From NCBI RefSeq assembly GCF_006517815.1, contig NZ_CP041198.1:1302001-1366000 (forward strand): 64,000 bases of DNA. Direction: 5' to 3'. How positions within the stretch are numbered: position 1 is the stretch's first letter; every line of letters starts with the position of its first letter. The notes beneath the pieces are model-generated. The model ran no database searches, was not told where the DNA came from, and saw only the letters and a list, made by a program, of their open reading frames with translations. This DNA comes from Pseudarthrobacter sp. NIBRBAC000502770. Its GTDB lineage: Bacteria > Actinomycetota > Actinomycetes > Actinomycetales > Micrococcaceae. A program made the translations under genes and the position numbers. Shown one piece after another: positions 6,167 through 15,949 of this stretch.

Positions 6167-6199
6167 GGTTGGCTGGGAAAGCTGGGGAGGGTAAGGGGT

Positions 6200-6766
6200 T
6201 TACTTCAACGCCGCTTGGCGAAGGTACTGGTAGACCGTTTCCCTGCTGATTCCGTAGTCACGGGCGAGGACGACCTTTGGAACGCCGCTGTCGGCGCGCT
6301 GAACCAGCTCTGCCGCCCGTTCCGGCGTCAGGGTCTTTTTCCGCCCCTTATACGCGCCACGTTGCTTGGCCAGCGCGATGCCCTCGCGTTGGCGTTCCCT
6401 GATCAGAGAGCGCTCAAATTCGGCGAAGGCGCCCATGACTGAGAGCATGAGGTTGGCCATGGGGGAGTCCTCGCCGGTGAAGACGAGCTGTTCTTTGACG
6501 AACTCCACCCGCACCCCTCGCTTGGTGAGTCTCTGCACCAGGGCACGCAGGTCATCGAGGTTTCGGGCGAGCCGGTCCATGCTGTGCACGACTACCGCGT
6601 CCCCGTCGCGGACGAACCGCAGCAGCTCCGTTAGCTGCGGCCGAGCGGTGTCCCGGCCGGAAGCCTTGTCGGTGAAAACCCGGTCCAGGACCTGGCCGTC
6701 GAGCTGGCGGACCCCATTCTGATCCACGGTACTCACCCGCACATAGCCGATGCGCTGACCATTCAC
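6200..6766 (-). CDS. Serine recombinase (resolvase/invertase, Pin-like)
   Basis: A small serine site-specific recombinase. The catalytic domain opens with RIGYVRVSTVDQN (nucleophile Ser about residue 12) and contains VVHSMDRLARNLDDL and the E-helix region MGAFAEFERSLIRERQREGI. A C-terminal helix-turn-helix follows (LVQRADSGVPKVVLARDYGI, then SRETVYQYLR). At about 188 residues it has the length of Tn3-type resolvases and DNA invertases. The GTG at 6766 is chosen because TTGGAGG sits 5 bases upstream; a TTG at 6778 is in frame but badly placed. I found no matching crossover sites or transposase beside it. Confidence 0.9.
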   Translation of the reverse strand: MNGQRIGYVRVSTVDQNGVRQLDGQVLDRVFTDKASGRDTARPQLTELLRFVRDGDAVVVHSMDRLARNLDDLRALVQRLTKRGVRVEFVKEQLVFTGEDSPMANLMLSVMGAFAEFERSLIRERQREGIALAKQRGAYKGRKKTLTPERAAELVQRADSGVPKVVLARDYGISRETVYQYLRQAALK

Positions 6767-6981
6767 GGCGACCTCCAATGCTCGACTTGTGAGAACGAGT
6801 GTCAGGGTCCCCCAACGAACACGTCAAGACGCTCCGCTGCCCGGCGTCGCCCATACGTGCAAGAACAGCGGGCTCTCCGGGGGACCCATTGCTTGCCGTA
6901 CGGGACAAGCCCGAGATGGTGTACGTTGCTCTCTGGTCAGGACAGCAACCGGCACCACAGAAGAAAAGAGAACCGCCAAAA

Positions 6982-9820: not shown

Positions 9821-10534
9821 CTAGTCCGACTTGCCGCGATGATGTTGCCGTATCGCGACTGAGGCGGCGAAGTCTTCCGGAAGACCAACCTCGGCAGGCC
9901 CTAGGTCTTCTATGTTCCACAGTTCCTGTTCCGGCCGGCCGAGCCCAATTGGGGTTGATCCTGACACGTCAAGCAGCGATGGGGTTGTTGCCATGCCTGT
10001 GCCGAGTGCTTTGAGGACAGCTTCCTTGCGGACCCAGAGCCGGGTCTGGAAGGTCGTTCTCGATGCAGGGGGCAGCTTTCGCAGCTGTCGGCGCTCATTC
10101 GCCGTCATCGCGACAAACTGGAATCCCGCAAAGTCGGCCGCGGCTCCGTTCTCGATGTCCAGTCCGACATCGGCGATGTTCTCATCGAGGCTGGCGCCGA
10201 GGAGGCACCAGTTCCCGTACCTGCTGAGGCTGACGTGCAGGCTGCCGGTATATGACGGGAGCTGATACTGAGGGATTCCGTGTCCGTGATCGCTTCGGTT
10301 GCTGCAGGATGGACAAAAGTAGGTTGCCTTGAGGGCGCCGGGATTGTCACCGGTGATGGCGCTGATGTGAAGGCGCAGCGCTATGCGGCCGGCCACGAAC
10401 CGGTCCCGCAGGGCTGGGAAGCGGAACGTGTTGGCCCTAATAATCTCCGCTTCGTCCAGGATATGTATGAGGCCAAGGTCGACGTCGGACAGCCGCACCG
10501 CTGCCAGGGAGAGCCCATGAATGGTGGGTGTCAT
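9821..10534 (-). CDS. 4'-Phosphopantetheinyl transferase, Sfp type
   Basis: A 237-residue enzyme that would move the phosphopantetheine arm of CoA onto the carrier-domain Ser of the neighbouring peptide synthetase. The two hallmark motifs are present: DVGLDIENG (about residue 121, Mg-binding Asp and Glu) and RLWVRKEAVLKALGTGM (about 165-180, the W-x-x-K-E-A motif). A Cys/His cluster at ATYFCPSCSNRSDHGHG is unusual. Its start overlaps the stop of the M1 peptidase gene by 4 bases (ATGA), so it is the third gene of a coupled NRPS-peptidase-PPTase operon. Confidence 0.9.
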   Translation of the reverse strand: MTPTIHGLSLAAVRLSDVDLGLIHILDEAEIIRANTFRFPALRDRFVAGRIALRLHISAITGDNPGALKATYFCPSCSNRSDHGHGIPQYQLPSYTGSLHVSLSRYGNWCLLGASLDENIADVGLDIENGAAADFAGFQFVAMTANERRQLRKLPPASRTTFQTRLWVRKEAVLKALGTGMATTPSLLDVSGSTPIGLGRPEQELWNIEDLGPAEVGLPEDFAASVAIRQHHRGKSD

Positions 10535-11949
10535 GGTAGCGGAGGCAGTGCTGCCCGGTAGAGCCAGGGGGTGAATATGGTGCGGGCGTTGAATCCGGGG
10601 AGTTCGACGAAGGCCCGGTCCGCCGTGTCCATGAGGTCGGCTGTGGTGACTCCGCCATGGCGGTAGCTGTCCGCCCAGCTGCGAAGGAACTCGAAGAACG
10701 GTACGTCGCCGGACGCGCGCCGCAGGGCGTGGAGGGCCAGGGCGCCGCGTTTGTAGACCCGGTCATCGAACATGAGCTCGGGGGATGGGTCGCCCACGAG
10801 CAGATCCTGGGCTTGGGAGGAGAGTCCCTGCCACGCGGCCGTTGCCCGCTGCTGAGCTGTTGCTTGTCCCGAGGCCTCGGACCAGATCCACTCGGCGTAG
10901 CACGCGAAGCCCTCGTGCAGCCAGATGTCAGCCCAGGTCTTGACGGTTAGGGAGTTCCCGAACCATTGGTGGGCCAGTTCGTGGGCGATGAGCCGCTGGT
11001 CGTTCCACTGCTGGCTGAGGTGGTTTGGTCCAAAAACGGCCAGTGACTGGGCTTCCAAGGGGATTTCGAGGTCGTCATCCGCCACGACCACTGTGTAATT
11101 GGCGAACGGGTATGGGCCGAAGCAGGCCTCGAAGCTTTCCATCATCTGACCCTGGCGGCCCAGGGCTGCAGCGGCGGATGCCATGAGTGCAGGAGGCGCC
11201 GCGATGTACTGCGGTACAGGGCCGCGGCTGCCGTGCGGGGCATCTGCCCGGTGCGCCGGGTCATGGGTTTGGAAGGCCAGGGGACGTAGGTCGTAGCGGC
11301 CAATCTGCACGGTCGCAAGATAGGTGGCCATGGGCTCGGCCTGTTCAAAGACCCAGGTTTCGCGGCTGGCTTTGGCATGCCGCGAGACCAGCACCCCGTT
11401 GCAGATCACCCGATAGTTGGCCTCGGTGGTAACGGTGTACCCGAAGCTGGCCTTCTGGCTGGGGTGGTCGTTGCAGGGAAACCACGACGGCGCACCGGTG
11501 GGCTGCCCGGCTACCAGGACGCCGTCGGTAAGTTCTTCCCATCCGACGTCGCCCCAGTTGCCACGCAGGGGCCCGGGCGTGCCGTCGTAGCGGATGTCCA
11601 GGCTGAAGTCCGTCCCGGTGGCCAAGGGACGTGCCGGGATGATGATGAGCTGGTTTCCGCGCTGGCTGAACCGCTGGACCCGCTGTCCGTTGAGTTGGAC
11701 TTTCAGGACGCGCAGGCCAGCCAGATTCAGGACTATTCTGTCCAATGGAGCGCAGGACTGCGCGGTGATCGCGGCGTGACCGGACAGGCGGTTGGTGGTG
11801 ACCCGGTAGTCCAGGTAGAGCTCGTAGCGGGAAACCCGGTAGTCCGCGGACCCGTGCCCGGGTGTGTAGGGATCAGGCAGCGGGCAAGAGGCAGGGGCTG
11901 AGCTCAACCCGCTTGCCGGGCCCGGCGAATGCTCGTGGTGCGCGGTCAC
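10531..11949 (-). CDS. M1-family zinc metallopeptidase (aminopeptidase N-like)
   Basis: About 472 residues from the GTG at 11949. It has the beta-saddle N-domain (YELYLDYRVTTNRLSGHAAI) and the catalytic motif HELAHQWFGN followed 19 residues later by the Glu in LHEGFACYAEW, so the full HExxH-x18-E zinc site is present. The GAMEN-type loop appears as EIPLEAQSLAVF. It stops soon after the catalytic domain (about 470 residues against 850 in full-length PepN), as in many short actinobacterial M1 enzymes. The GTG overlaps the NRPS stop in a GTGA. Inference: it may trim or degrade the NRPS product, or act as self-protection. Confidence 0.85.
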   Translation of the reverse strand: MTAHHEHSPGPASGLSSAPASCPLPDPYTPGHGSADYRVSRYELYLDYRVTTNRLSGHAAITAQSCAPLDRIVLNLAGLRVLKVQLNGQRVQRFSQRGNQLIIIPARPLATGTDFSLDIRYDGTPGPLRGNWGDVGWEELTDGVLVAGQPTGAPSWFPCNDHPSQKASFGYTVTTEANYRVICNGVLVSRHAKASRETWVFEQAEPMATYLATVQIGRYDLRPLAFQTHDPAHRADAPHGSRGPVPQYIAAPPALMASAAAALGRQGQMMESFEACFGPYPFANYTVVVADDDLEIPLEAQSLAVFGPNHLSQQWNDQRLIAHELAHQWFGNSLTVKTWADIWLHEGFACYAEWIWSEASGQATAQQRATAAWQGLSSQAQDLLVGDPSPELMFDDRVYKRGALALHALRRASGDVPFFEFLRSWADSYRHGGVTTADLMDTADRAFVELPGFNARTIFTPWLYRAALPPLP

Positions 11950-14900
11950 TGTCGCTGGGCCTCCCGGGCAGGAAAAGTGGTGGCGGGGGAGGTCCACGGG
12001 CTGACCGGGTTGCCGATCCAGTAGCTGGCCGCCGGAACGGTTTCACCCCGCATCACCAAAGATGCCGGCCCAACGGTACCGCCGGCACCAATCCGGGCAG
12101 CCGGCAGGATGACCCCGTGCGGACCCATGGTTGCCCCCGGTTCCAGCGTAACGGTATCGATGCTCATCACGCGGTCGTGAAAAAGGTGGGTCTGGATAAC
12201 GCAGCCGCGGTTGACGGTTGAGTTCGCGCCGAGCGAGACCAGGTCCGCTTCCGGCAACCAGTAGCTCTCGCACCAGGCGCCGGGACCGATGGTGGCCCCG
12301 AGGCCGCGCAGCCACCAGACCAACGCAGGGGTACCCGCAGCGGCACGGGCAAACCAGGGAGCGGTCACCATTTCAATGAAGGTGTCCACCACCTCGTTGC
12401 GCCAGATAAATGAACTCCACAACGGGTGCTCGCTTGCCTCGATCTTCCCCACGAGCAGCCATTTGGCTGCCACCGAACTTGCCGCGGCCACACCGCCCGC
12501 GGCGAGCAGCACGGGCGCCCCGAGCAGCGCGGCGGCGGCGTATCCGGCGAAGCCTGCCACCCAGTCCAGGACCACCAGAATGGCTATCGCAATAGCGGCC
12601 GTGAGGACCACCGGAACGGCGCGGCACAGTTCCCAGCACGCCCGGTAAATTTTAAGCCGGAGAGGAGGGTTGAACGTCAGGCTCTGATCCATCTCCATCC
12701 GTGCCCGGCGCAGCCGCACGGGCGGGCTGCCCAGCCAGGATGTCCCGGACTTCGCCTTCGCCGGCGTCGCTGACAGCACCGCGACCAGGGAATTTTTGGG
12801 CACGCTTCGTCCAGCGCCCGTCATCCCCGAGTTGCCCAGGAAAGCGCGTTTGCCGATCTTCGCCGGAGCGATCCGCATCCAACCGCCGCCGAGTTCATAG
12901 GAGGCGATCATCGTGTCGTCGGCCAGGAAGGCCCCGTCCCCGACGGTAGTCATGGAGGGCAGCAGGAGCACCGTTGACGCCTCGACGTTCCGTCCCACCT
13001 TTGCCCCGAGCAGCCGCAGCCAGACCGGGGTAAACAGGCTTGCGTACAGGGGAAAGAGCAGGTCCCGTGCCATATCCAGTAGCCGCTCGGTGGCCCAAAC
13101 CCGCCAGCCAGTGAAGCTACGCACACGGTAACGGCCTTCGCGAAGTCCAAGGCCAAGCAAACGGACGACGACGGCGGTCAGGGTCATGTTGGACAGGAAC
13201 CACAGCGATGCTGCCAAAGGGACCGCCCACAGTAGCCGGACACCCGACGAGAACAGAGACTCGCCCCTCGGATGGCGGCGATGACGGGCAGCGCGCCCAC
13301 AGCGGCAGAGACGAACGGAATGAGCGCCAGCAGCCCTGCGGCCAGCGCGTAGGCGGCAAACGCCAGCACGGTCTTCAGGCCCGACGGCGGCCGTGCGGGC
13401 CAGTTTTGTTCGGCTTTGCCCAGGCGCTGGGCGGGAGAGCCCGCGAAGCGCTGGTTTGCCTTGACCTTGCCCAGGACGGCCGAGCCCGGGGCTACTTCCG
13501 CGCCGGCACCGATCCGCGCACCCGGCATCAGGGTGCTCCGCGACCCGACTGTGGCACCCGGGCCGACCCGGACATGGCCGATGTGTACCAGGTCGCCGTC
13601 GATCCACCAGCCCGAAAGGTCCACTTCGGGTTCGATCGAGCAACCGGAGCCCAGGCTCAACATGCCGGTGACTGGCGGGATGGAATGAAGGTCAACGTCC
13701 TTGCCCACCTTGGCGCCAAGGGCACGGGCGTAGTACGGGACCCAGGGGGCTCCGGCGAGGCTGACCGCCCCGGAAAGATCCGCGATGTGTTCAGCGAGCC
13801 ACAGTCTCAGGTGGACTTTTCCCGAGCGGGGATAGCTGCCGGGAACCACACCGCGGAGCAAGAGGCGGGCCGCCGCTACGGAGACTGCCATGCGGCCCAG
13901 CGGGCTTACAAAAACCACCCAGGAGGCCAGGACCCACCACCAGGACACGGTCGGGGCGCCGGTCAGCACACCCCACATGGAAAGGACGTTGTTGATGGTC
14001 ATCAGGTAGGTGAGCCAGCGCATCGATACGAGCACGTGCAGCGGGAACCCGGCTACGAACTGGAACACCTGGGACTTCCGGGCGGTGGGCCGCACCTGAC
14101 GTTCGGCCAGCGGGGAAGCCTCCATGCCGCCGTCGGGCATTGAAAGCCTGGCGTACTCGATCAAGGCGCCCAACCGCGGGCGCGCGTAAACGTCCGCCAC
14201 CGCAATGCTGGGATACCGCACCCGGAGAGCCGAGACGAGCCGGGCAGCGGTCAGGCTGCCGCCGCCATAGGCGAAAAAATCAGCGTCCAGGCTGTCGGGC
14301 GGGGTCCCCAGAACATCCACCCATTGCTGCACAATCCACGCTGTCGGACCGTCCAGGTCCGGCATCGCAGGTTCCCCAGCCTCTGAGGTGAGCGGCCAGG
14401 GCAGGGCGTGACGGTCTACCTTCCCACTGGTTTTCACAGGAAGGCCATCGATCACGGTGAGCAAGGGAATTAAGGCCGCGGGCAGCTGAGTGGCCAGCAG
14501 GTCGCGTGCCTGCTCCAGGTTCGCGGCCGTCCCCGGTGCCGGCACGAGGTAGCCCACGAGGACCTGGCTCCCAGCGGCGGTGTCCTTCACTGCGGCCGCC
14601 GCCCCTTGGATACCGGGCAAGGACTGGAGGGCCGCGTCGATTTCTCCGAGTTCGATCCGTCGGCCGCCGAGTTTCACCTGCTCATCGGCGCGGCCCACGA
14701 AGACCAGGCCCTCGCTTTCGTACCGGACCAAGTCCCCGCTGCGGTATGCACGGTCCCAGCCGAGGGTCTCCATAGGCGCATACTTCTCCGCGTCCTTGGC
14801 CGGATCCAGATACCGGGCAAGACCAACTCCGCCAATGATCAATTCACCTGTCCCGCCTTCGCTGACGGGGATCCCAGAAGGATCAACGACGGCGAGATCC

Positions 14901-15949
14901 CACCCGTCCAGCGGCAGGCCGATCCGCACGGGTGCGCTCCCGTCCATCCGGGCGGCGCAGGCCACAACGGTCGCCTCCGTGGGTCCGTATGTGTTCCAGA
15001 CTTCGCGTTCGTCCACGGCGAGCCGGGCAGCCAGTTCGGGCGGGCACGCCTCACCGCCGAAGATCAGAAGCCGGACCGCTTCAAGCGACTCGGCCGGCCA
15101 GAGGCCGGCCAGAGTAGGGACGGTGGAAACGACAGTGATCCCATTCGTGATCAGCCATGGCCCCAGATCCATCCCGGTCCGGACCAGTGACCGGGGAGCA
15201 GGCACCAGGCATGCCCCGTTACGCCAGGCCAGCCACATCTCCTCGCAGGAGGCATCAAACGCCACGGACAGGCCGGCCAGCACGCGGTCCGTGGAGTTCA
15301 CTGGATTCGCGGGGAGGAACAACCGCGCCTCGGCGTCCACTAAAGCGGCGGCCGACCGGTGGGTCACCGCGACGCCCTTGGGCCTGCCCGTGGAACCGGA
15401 GGTGAAGATCACCCACGCGTCATCCTCGACCCGGGGCCGCCGGGGTGCCGCGAAGGGTTTCCCCCTGCCGGGAACAGCGGAAATCCCGCCGTCGCGCAGG
15501 ATAGCCGCCACGCCCGCTTCTCCAAAGACGAGACTGGCCCTCTCCTCCGGGTCATCCGCATCCACCGGTACGTATGCTGCGCCCACCAAAAGTGTGCCGA
15601 GAATTGCTATGTAGAGTTCATTGGTTCCGGATGGAATCCGGATCCCCACCTTGTCTCCGGCACCGATCCCGTTCCGGTGCAGGCGGAGGGCATATTCCTT
15701 TGCCGCCGAATGCAGGTCGGCATAACTTAACGAGACCCGTCCGTCATCCAAAGCCGAAGCATCAGGAAACCGCCGTGCCGTCTCCTCAAAGACCTGAACC
15801 AGTGTGCGGGGCGGGGCGGCCTTCCCGGCGGCACCCAGCTGGGGCAAGTACGCTGCCACACGTCTATTCTGACCGGGAACCAGCCCTCGGGCACTCTCGA
15901 CAGAAGCTGCCTGTTTCCCGGCCGGTCCCGTCAGATCAGAAACATTCAC
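11946..15949 (-). CDS. Pls/PosA-type nonribosomal peptide synthetase (epsilon-poly-lysine synthetase-like), frameshifted
   Basis: Joined across one frameshift this is about 1,334 codons, close to the length I recall for S. albulus Pls. Order: adenylation domain (about 45-515; VIFTSGSTGRPKGVAVTHRS, NTYGPTEATVVA, KTSGKVDR), carrier domain with Ser in YGGGSLTAARL, then three units of paired membrane helices and a left-handed-beta-helix (hexapeptide) domain, and no thioesterase. Aligned to GrsA, the pocket residues are D235 A236 E239 S278 I299 G301 T322 V330 V331 K517. This is close to the known Lys code DAESIGSVCK. The frame breaks at a G4 run (plus 13264-13267): 921 codons end at 13184, and the rest reads on in another frame to 11946. 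One extra G restores IRGGESLFSSGVRLLWAV. GTG start. Confidence 0.85.

Follow-up and report, generated by a model that had tools for sequence, protein, structure and literature searches.

A probable second epsilon-poly-L-lysine synthetase operon, of a minor pls lineage and with its synthetase frame broken as sequenced, in Pseudarthrobacter sp. NIBRBAC000502770

Genes and adenylation pocket of the locus

The window, a stretch of 64,000 nucleotides of contig NZ_CP041198.1 from the soil bacterium Pseudarthrobacter sp. NIBRBAC000502770, carries at 9821-15949 three genes that all lie on the minus strand in its list of open reading frames (ORFs): a synthetase gene of the pls type, a gene for an M1-family peptidase, and a gene for a phosphopantetheinyl transferase (PPTase) of the Sfp type (Table 1). 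The synthetase has an adenylation (A) domain of PF00501, a carrier (T) domain of PF00550, and then the Pls/PosA terminal domain TIGR02353, which is split across two reading frames. The C part of that domain by itself scores above the cut-off of 423 bits, and this part of the protein is 92% identical to its counterparts in L009, G009, and G021.

Table 1. Positions of the operon's genes, domains, and overlaps within the window
Feature	Position	Strand	Evidence
pls N part, second lineage: A, T, first membrane helices, C1; 921-codon ORF	13184..15949	-	domain and structure matches
A domain, residues 41-522, pocket DAESIGTVVK	14384..15829	-	match to 7wew, 634 bits
T (carrier) domain, residues 538-599	14153..14338	-	PF00550; GGGS motif near residue 562
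Stretch of coding-frame change, between membrane helices 3 and 4	13230..13290	-	alignment with relatives and hydropathy
pls C part: C2, membrane helices, C3; other frame (ORF listed 11946-13643)	11946..13262 (start approximate)	-	TIGR02353 positions 279-695, 470 bits
GTGA overlap, pls stop/M1 start	11946..11949	-	sequence read
M1-family metallopeptidase, 472 aa, pldII-like by position; HExxH-x18-E	10531..11949	-	domain match and motif
M1 stop/PPTase ATG overlap	10531..10534	-	ORF coordinates
Sfp-type 4'-phosphopantetheinyl transferase, 237 aa	9821..10534	-	PF01648, 44 bits; GLDIE at 124, WVRKEAVLKA at 167

The original prediction had read the ten residues of the adenylation pocket as DAESIGTVVK, and that reading was correct. 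With GrsA position numbers set via motif anchors, the letters fall at residues 232, 233, 236, 275, 296, 298, 320, 328, 329, and 510 of the N-terminal ORF. The best solved relative is 7wew, the A domain of an epsilon-poly-L-lysine synthase, and its letters at the ten places, read from the alignment, are identical to those of the window. The same code is common to all 88 aligned rows, which comprise 80 genome-contig loci, seven further regions, and the window; as the 80 loci rank highest among 581 confirmed relatives, this count covers the nearer members of the family. The closest solved relative thus has the same pocket rather than a different one, and the agreement with 7wew and with all 88 rows makes lysine the likely substrate of the window A domain, judged from sequence. 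In PosA, the mutants D217A and E221A had undetectable activity, and S. albulus Pls has Ala at the place of PosA's Met218, according to the available text of PMC10522769; the window residues at the places of D217, Met218, and E221 are D, A, and E. A structure predicted for the A domain with AlphaFold was of insufficient quality to serve as pocket evidence: its mean pLDDT was 62.4, with values below 50 at 206-262, where three pocket residues lie, and its alignment held 29 sequences, each at least 71% identical to the first.

It had been proposed that the enzyme makes a homopolymer of a basic amino acid, as enzymes of this architecture make epsilon-poly-lysine or poly-diaminobutyrate. Assignment of the gene to the family of epsilon-poly-lysine synthetases held up, as did the lysine type of the pocket; poly-diaminobutyrate is an unlikely product and was set aside on the pocket letters and gene context.

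The coupled peptidase and the linked phosphopantetheinyl transferase

Translational coupling of the M1 peptidase to the synthetase through the GTGA overlap, as first proposed, was supported by reading the sequence. A zinc peptidase directly behind pls, one trait of PldII, is therefore present in the window, and the motif HExxH-x18-E stands in its M1 protein and in all 88 rows. Every one of the best 80 of the 581 relatives has M1 behind pls and in the same orientation, usually at a short distance (2.2 kb in L075), and the window protein is 47% identical to the pls-linked M1 of a Kitasatospora plasmid. In S. albulus, pldII overlaps pls by 4 bp (PMC4361855) and is described as translationally coupled to it (PMC9223678), and a peptidase also neighbors pls in Corynebacterium (PMC8117764). 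The role of the peptidase differs between the available accounts: inactivation of Pld and PldII left output and chain length unchanged (PMC8506220), in contrast to the longer chains seen when pldII was repressed (PMC9223678). A coupled peptidase behind pls is already known from these descriptions of pldII, and most of the coupled unit originally proposed has already been published, given the S. albulus coupling and the presence of Pls homologues in Arthrobacter (PMC8117764).

The third gene offers more that is new. Its product shows what was looked for in an Sfp-type PPTase, namely, a domain of the ACPS superfamily, a length of about 230 residues, and the motifs G.DIE and W.RKEA; we take its GLDIE and WVRKEAVLKA to be the motifs of that type. 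An association of the PPTase with Pls, part of the original prediction, is backed by gene order and co-occurrence, and the order synthetase, peptidase, PPTase does recur in relatives. With an iterated profile, a PPTase was found near pls in 35 loci among the best 80 of 581 relatives. It lies on the opposite strand in 34 of them and on the strand of M1 in one, L009 of P. polychromogenes; the match in L067 is weak, and in L044 and L055 the PPTase is upstream of pls. No PPTase was found near pls in the Rhodococcus, Nocardia, and Mycolicibacterium loci among the 80, so the link is a feature of Micrococcaceae and their near kin.

The co-directional form seen in the window also occurs in G009 and G021, and the window PPTase shares no more than about 35-40% identity with its convergent counterparts. 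A PPTase at least 60% identical to it was present in eight of the 206 genus genomes searched, including its own, and in seven of these it is the next gene after M1, in the same orientation. In the eighth, G237, a lone PPTase about 60% identical to that of the window (L159, about 6177-6866) has neither pls nor M1 in the 13 kb examined, and no PPTase was found in the region examined around the second-lineage pls of G020. More distant PPTases of the genus (41-52% identity, L147-L157) had no M1 in any of 11 short loci, and in both larger stretches examined (G201 and G002) an NRPS-like gene lies a few kilobases away.

Co-occurrence across genomes points the same way. Across 99 genomes, with kinship uncorrected, at least two PF01648 genes were found in 59 of the 60 genomes with a Pls-family match versus 3 of the 39 without; the corresponding counts were 50/51 versus 0/10 within the same genus and 9/9 versus 3/29 in other families. 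The sole Pls-bearing genome without a second PF01648 gene is G027, which is 68% complete. The genome under study has three PF01648 genes: two of them adjoin the two pls copies, one each, and the third occupies a frame of 138 codons, the size of AcpS. Because kinship is uncorrected and NRPS-like enzymes in general should require a PPTase of this kind, the co-occurrence is to be read as an association only. The link to Pls is mildly new. A limited search of the literature on polylysine synthetases and PPTases turned up no Pls-linked PPTase, which does not imply that none has been described, and the available portions of PMC11078813, PMC12025171, and PMC10628120 do not bear on the PPTase.

A frame change in the synthetase and a second pls copy

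The architecture A-T-TM-C1-TM-C2-TM-C3 had been assigned to a gene of about 1,334 codons. The domains are there; the single gene is not, as they lie in two frames. The distance from 15949 to 11946 is 4,004 bases, which is not a multiple of three. A stop at 13184 closes the N-terminal frame, and a different frame is open through the C part; TIGR02353 positions 2-258 match the N-terminal ORF and positions 279-695 match the ORF ending at 11946. Alignment of the window to three close relatives located a single frame change, between the third and fourth of six expected membrane helices by simple hydropathy (five of the six exceeded the threshold, as did two stretches of the A domain, presumably falsely). 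Since the break separates C1 from C2, translation would terminate past C1 and the third membrane helix, which makes any product of the window copy doubtful.

One continuous frame of about 1,300 codons is expected in the Pls/PosA family, and its absence from the window synthetase is unusual, given that 50 of the 51 other strong matches (at least 683 bits) lie in open frames of at least 1,315 codons. The exception, G030, has 706 codons and comes from a genome with 6% contamination. The frame was open to its own end in 28 of 29 relative loci checked (L090-L118), L115 being without the anchor used. A single stop within the match is counted for 12 of the 51 rows; direct inspection of nine of them showed a frame open to its own end, with the match running beyond a slightly earlier stop. 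Comparison of the window with the three relatives gave dN/dS values of 0.05-0.06 for the part after the break and 0.09-0.11 for the part ahead of it, and the relatives among themselves gave 0.05-0.06 and 0.10-0.12 for the same two parts. This similarity indicates that the break, if not an error, arose very recently.

A further Pls is encoded elsewhere in this genome, at C2:978,734-980,803 (L001, L119), in a 1,364-codon frame without stops, followed by M1 and then a convergent PPTase. In a tree of 88 rows, made by a quick method without bootstrap, this copy stands beside P. chlorophenolicus in the main clade. The window copy clusters with G009, L009, G021, and the second of the two G020 copies (SH-aLRT 98-99), a placement that puts the window pls in a minor lineage; in close relatives, pls of this lineage has an open frame. 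Similarity of DNA to relatives spans the operon and little of the flanks compared, which fits transfer or relocation. A universal stress protein gene (PF00582; 8902-9414, plus strand) adjoins the PPTase; in L009 and L121, DNA like this gene (66-67% identity) is found at the opposite end of the operon, which suggests rearrangement. A resolvase-family recombinase (PF00239, PF02796) is encoded on the minus strand at 6200-6778, a few kilobases from the operon. Among 72,556 plasmid records, 53 carry relatives of Pls, the best being on a 1.35-Mb Arthrobacter plasmid (NZ_AP024648.1, L138), with M1 and a convergent PPTase.

We consider it probable that the locus is a second epsilon-poly-L-lysine synthetase operon (pls, a pldII-like M1 peptidase, and an Sfp-type PPTase) of the minor lineage, with its synthetase broken as sequenced, in an Arthrobacter-group genome that also has a pls-M1 pair of the common lineage. 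The main competing account, which we doubt but regard as a real possibility, is that the break is a sequencing or assembly error and that the second epsilon-poly-lysine operon, in the window, is complete and working. Purifying selection before and after the break, the open M1 and PPTase frames, and the rarity of broken copies among the strong matches would all fit; low dN/dS is equally expected from a sequencing error, and the assembly alone cannot tell. Against an error stand two weak arguments, that the genome was assembled in 2 contigs at 100% completeness and that the other genes scanned nearby have no split domains. A comparison of the window with G009 for frame errors aligned two stretches, too few for an error rate, and no second strain of the species was found among the best 120 of 7,837 matches to the N part, the closest of which was 89% identical. 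Overall, we somewhat favor a recent mutation, in a copy that is redundant, over a sequencing error.

Low dN/dS in both parts could also be read as the mark of a functional split synthetase, working as two proteins or joined by translational frameshifting, but this is very unlikely: no examined relative is split at the same place, the break falls inside a membrane hairpin, and about 25 unrelated residues end the N-terminal product. A programmed frameshift was set aside because relatives are open through the break site. More improbable still is a different cationic polymer, such as poly-diaminobutyrate or poly-ornithine. Enzymes of that kind do occur in the family, as the available text of PMC10522769 has it, but the window pocket is that of 7wew and has Ala where PosA has Met, and a coupled M1 is the context of pls and not that of diaminobutyrate or diaminopropionate synthetases as described in PMC8117764.

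Interpretation and comparison with known systems

Epsilon-poly-lysine is an antimicrobial polymer. In Pls of S. albulus, L-lysine is adenylated by the A domain and then held as a thioester on the phosphopantetheine arm of the T domain; the tandem domains C1-C2-C3, bound to the membrane, link lysines through their epsilon-amino groups into chains of about 25-35; the coupled peptidase cleaves the polymer. In the window operon, the association and position of the adjacent PPTase suggest that it would attach the phosphopantetheine arm. The window synthetase as assembled, truncated after C1 and the third membrane helix, should not polymerize, and any polymer that the strain makes would be the work of the open copy. 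The expectation that this locus makes a homopolymer through a working synthetase is not supported, given the broken frame and the open copy elsewhere in the genome.

A plausible biosynthetic lead is now placed as a known kind of locus, broken in this copy. The window copy as sequenced is not to be taken as a working synthetase, and the open copy or the open orthologues are better to study. What interest the locus retains is modest and comes from its link to a PPTase and from its redundancy. A genome with two pls lineages, one of them broken, offers a small example of redundant antimicrobial genes being lost. A tentative and rather unlikely extension is that the Pls of Micrococcaceae is served by a dedicated PPTase partner for which AcpS is no substitute, and that the window lineage captured this partner into the operon, making synthesis, trimming, and priming one translational unit. 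If so, lack of the right PPTase, and not promoter choice, could be one reason why Pls is silent in some hosts; in Corynebacterium glutamicum, Pls protein without product has been reported (PMC8117764, in its available text). The association is a cheap, testable idea about what Pls needs from its host.

Compared with the pls-pldII locus of S. albulus, the window operon shares the enzyme family, the domain order, and a peptidase coupled by a 4-bp overlap (PMC4361855), but its synthetase frame is broken, its PPTase follows the peptidase on the same strand, and its genome carries a second pls-M1 pair. The ten pocket letters are those of the solved epsilon-poly-lysine synthase A domain 7wew. Like the pls-M1 loci of the Arthrobacter group, it has pls and then M1 (80/80) and, as in 35/80, a PPTase nearby, which here is co-directional whereas theirs is on the opposite strand in 34/35. 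PosA, the delta-poly-L-ornithine synthetase of Acinetobacter baumannii, also belongs to the TIGR02353 family; it has Met where the window synthetase and Pls have a pocket Ala, and, unlike the window operon, it is described as a single-gene operon in the available text of PMC10522769.
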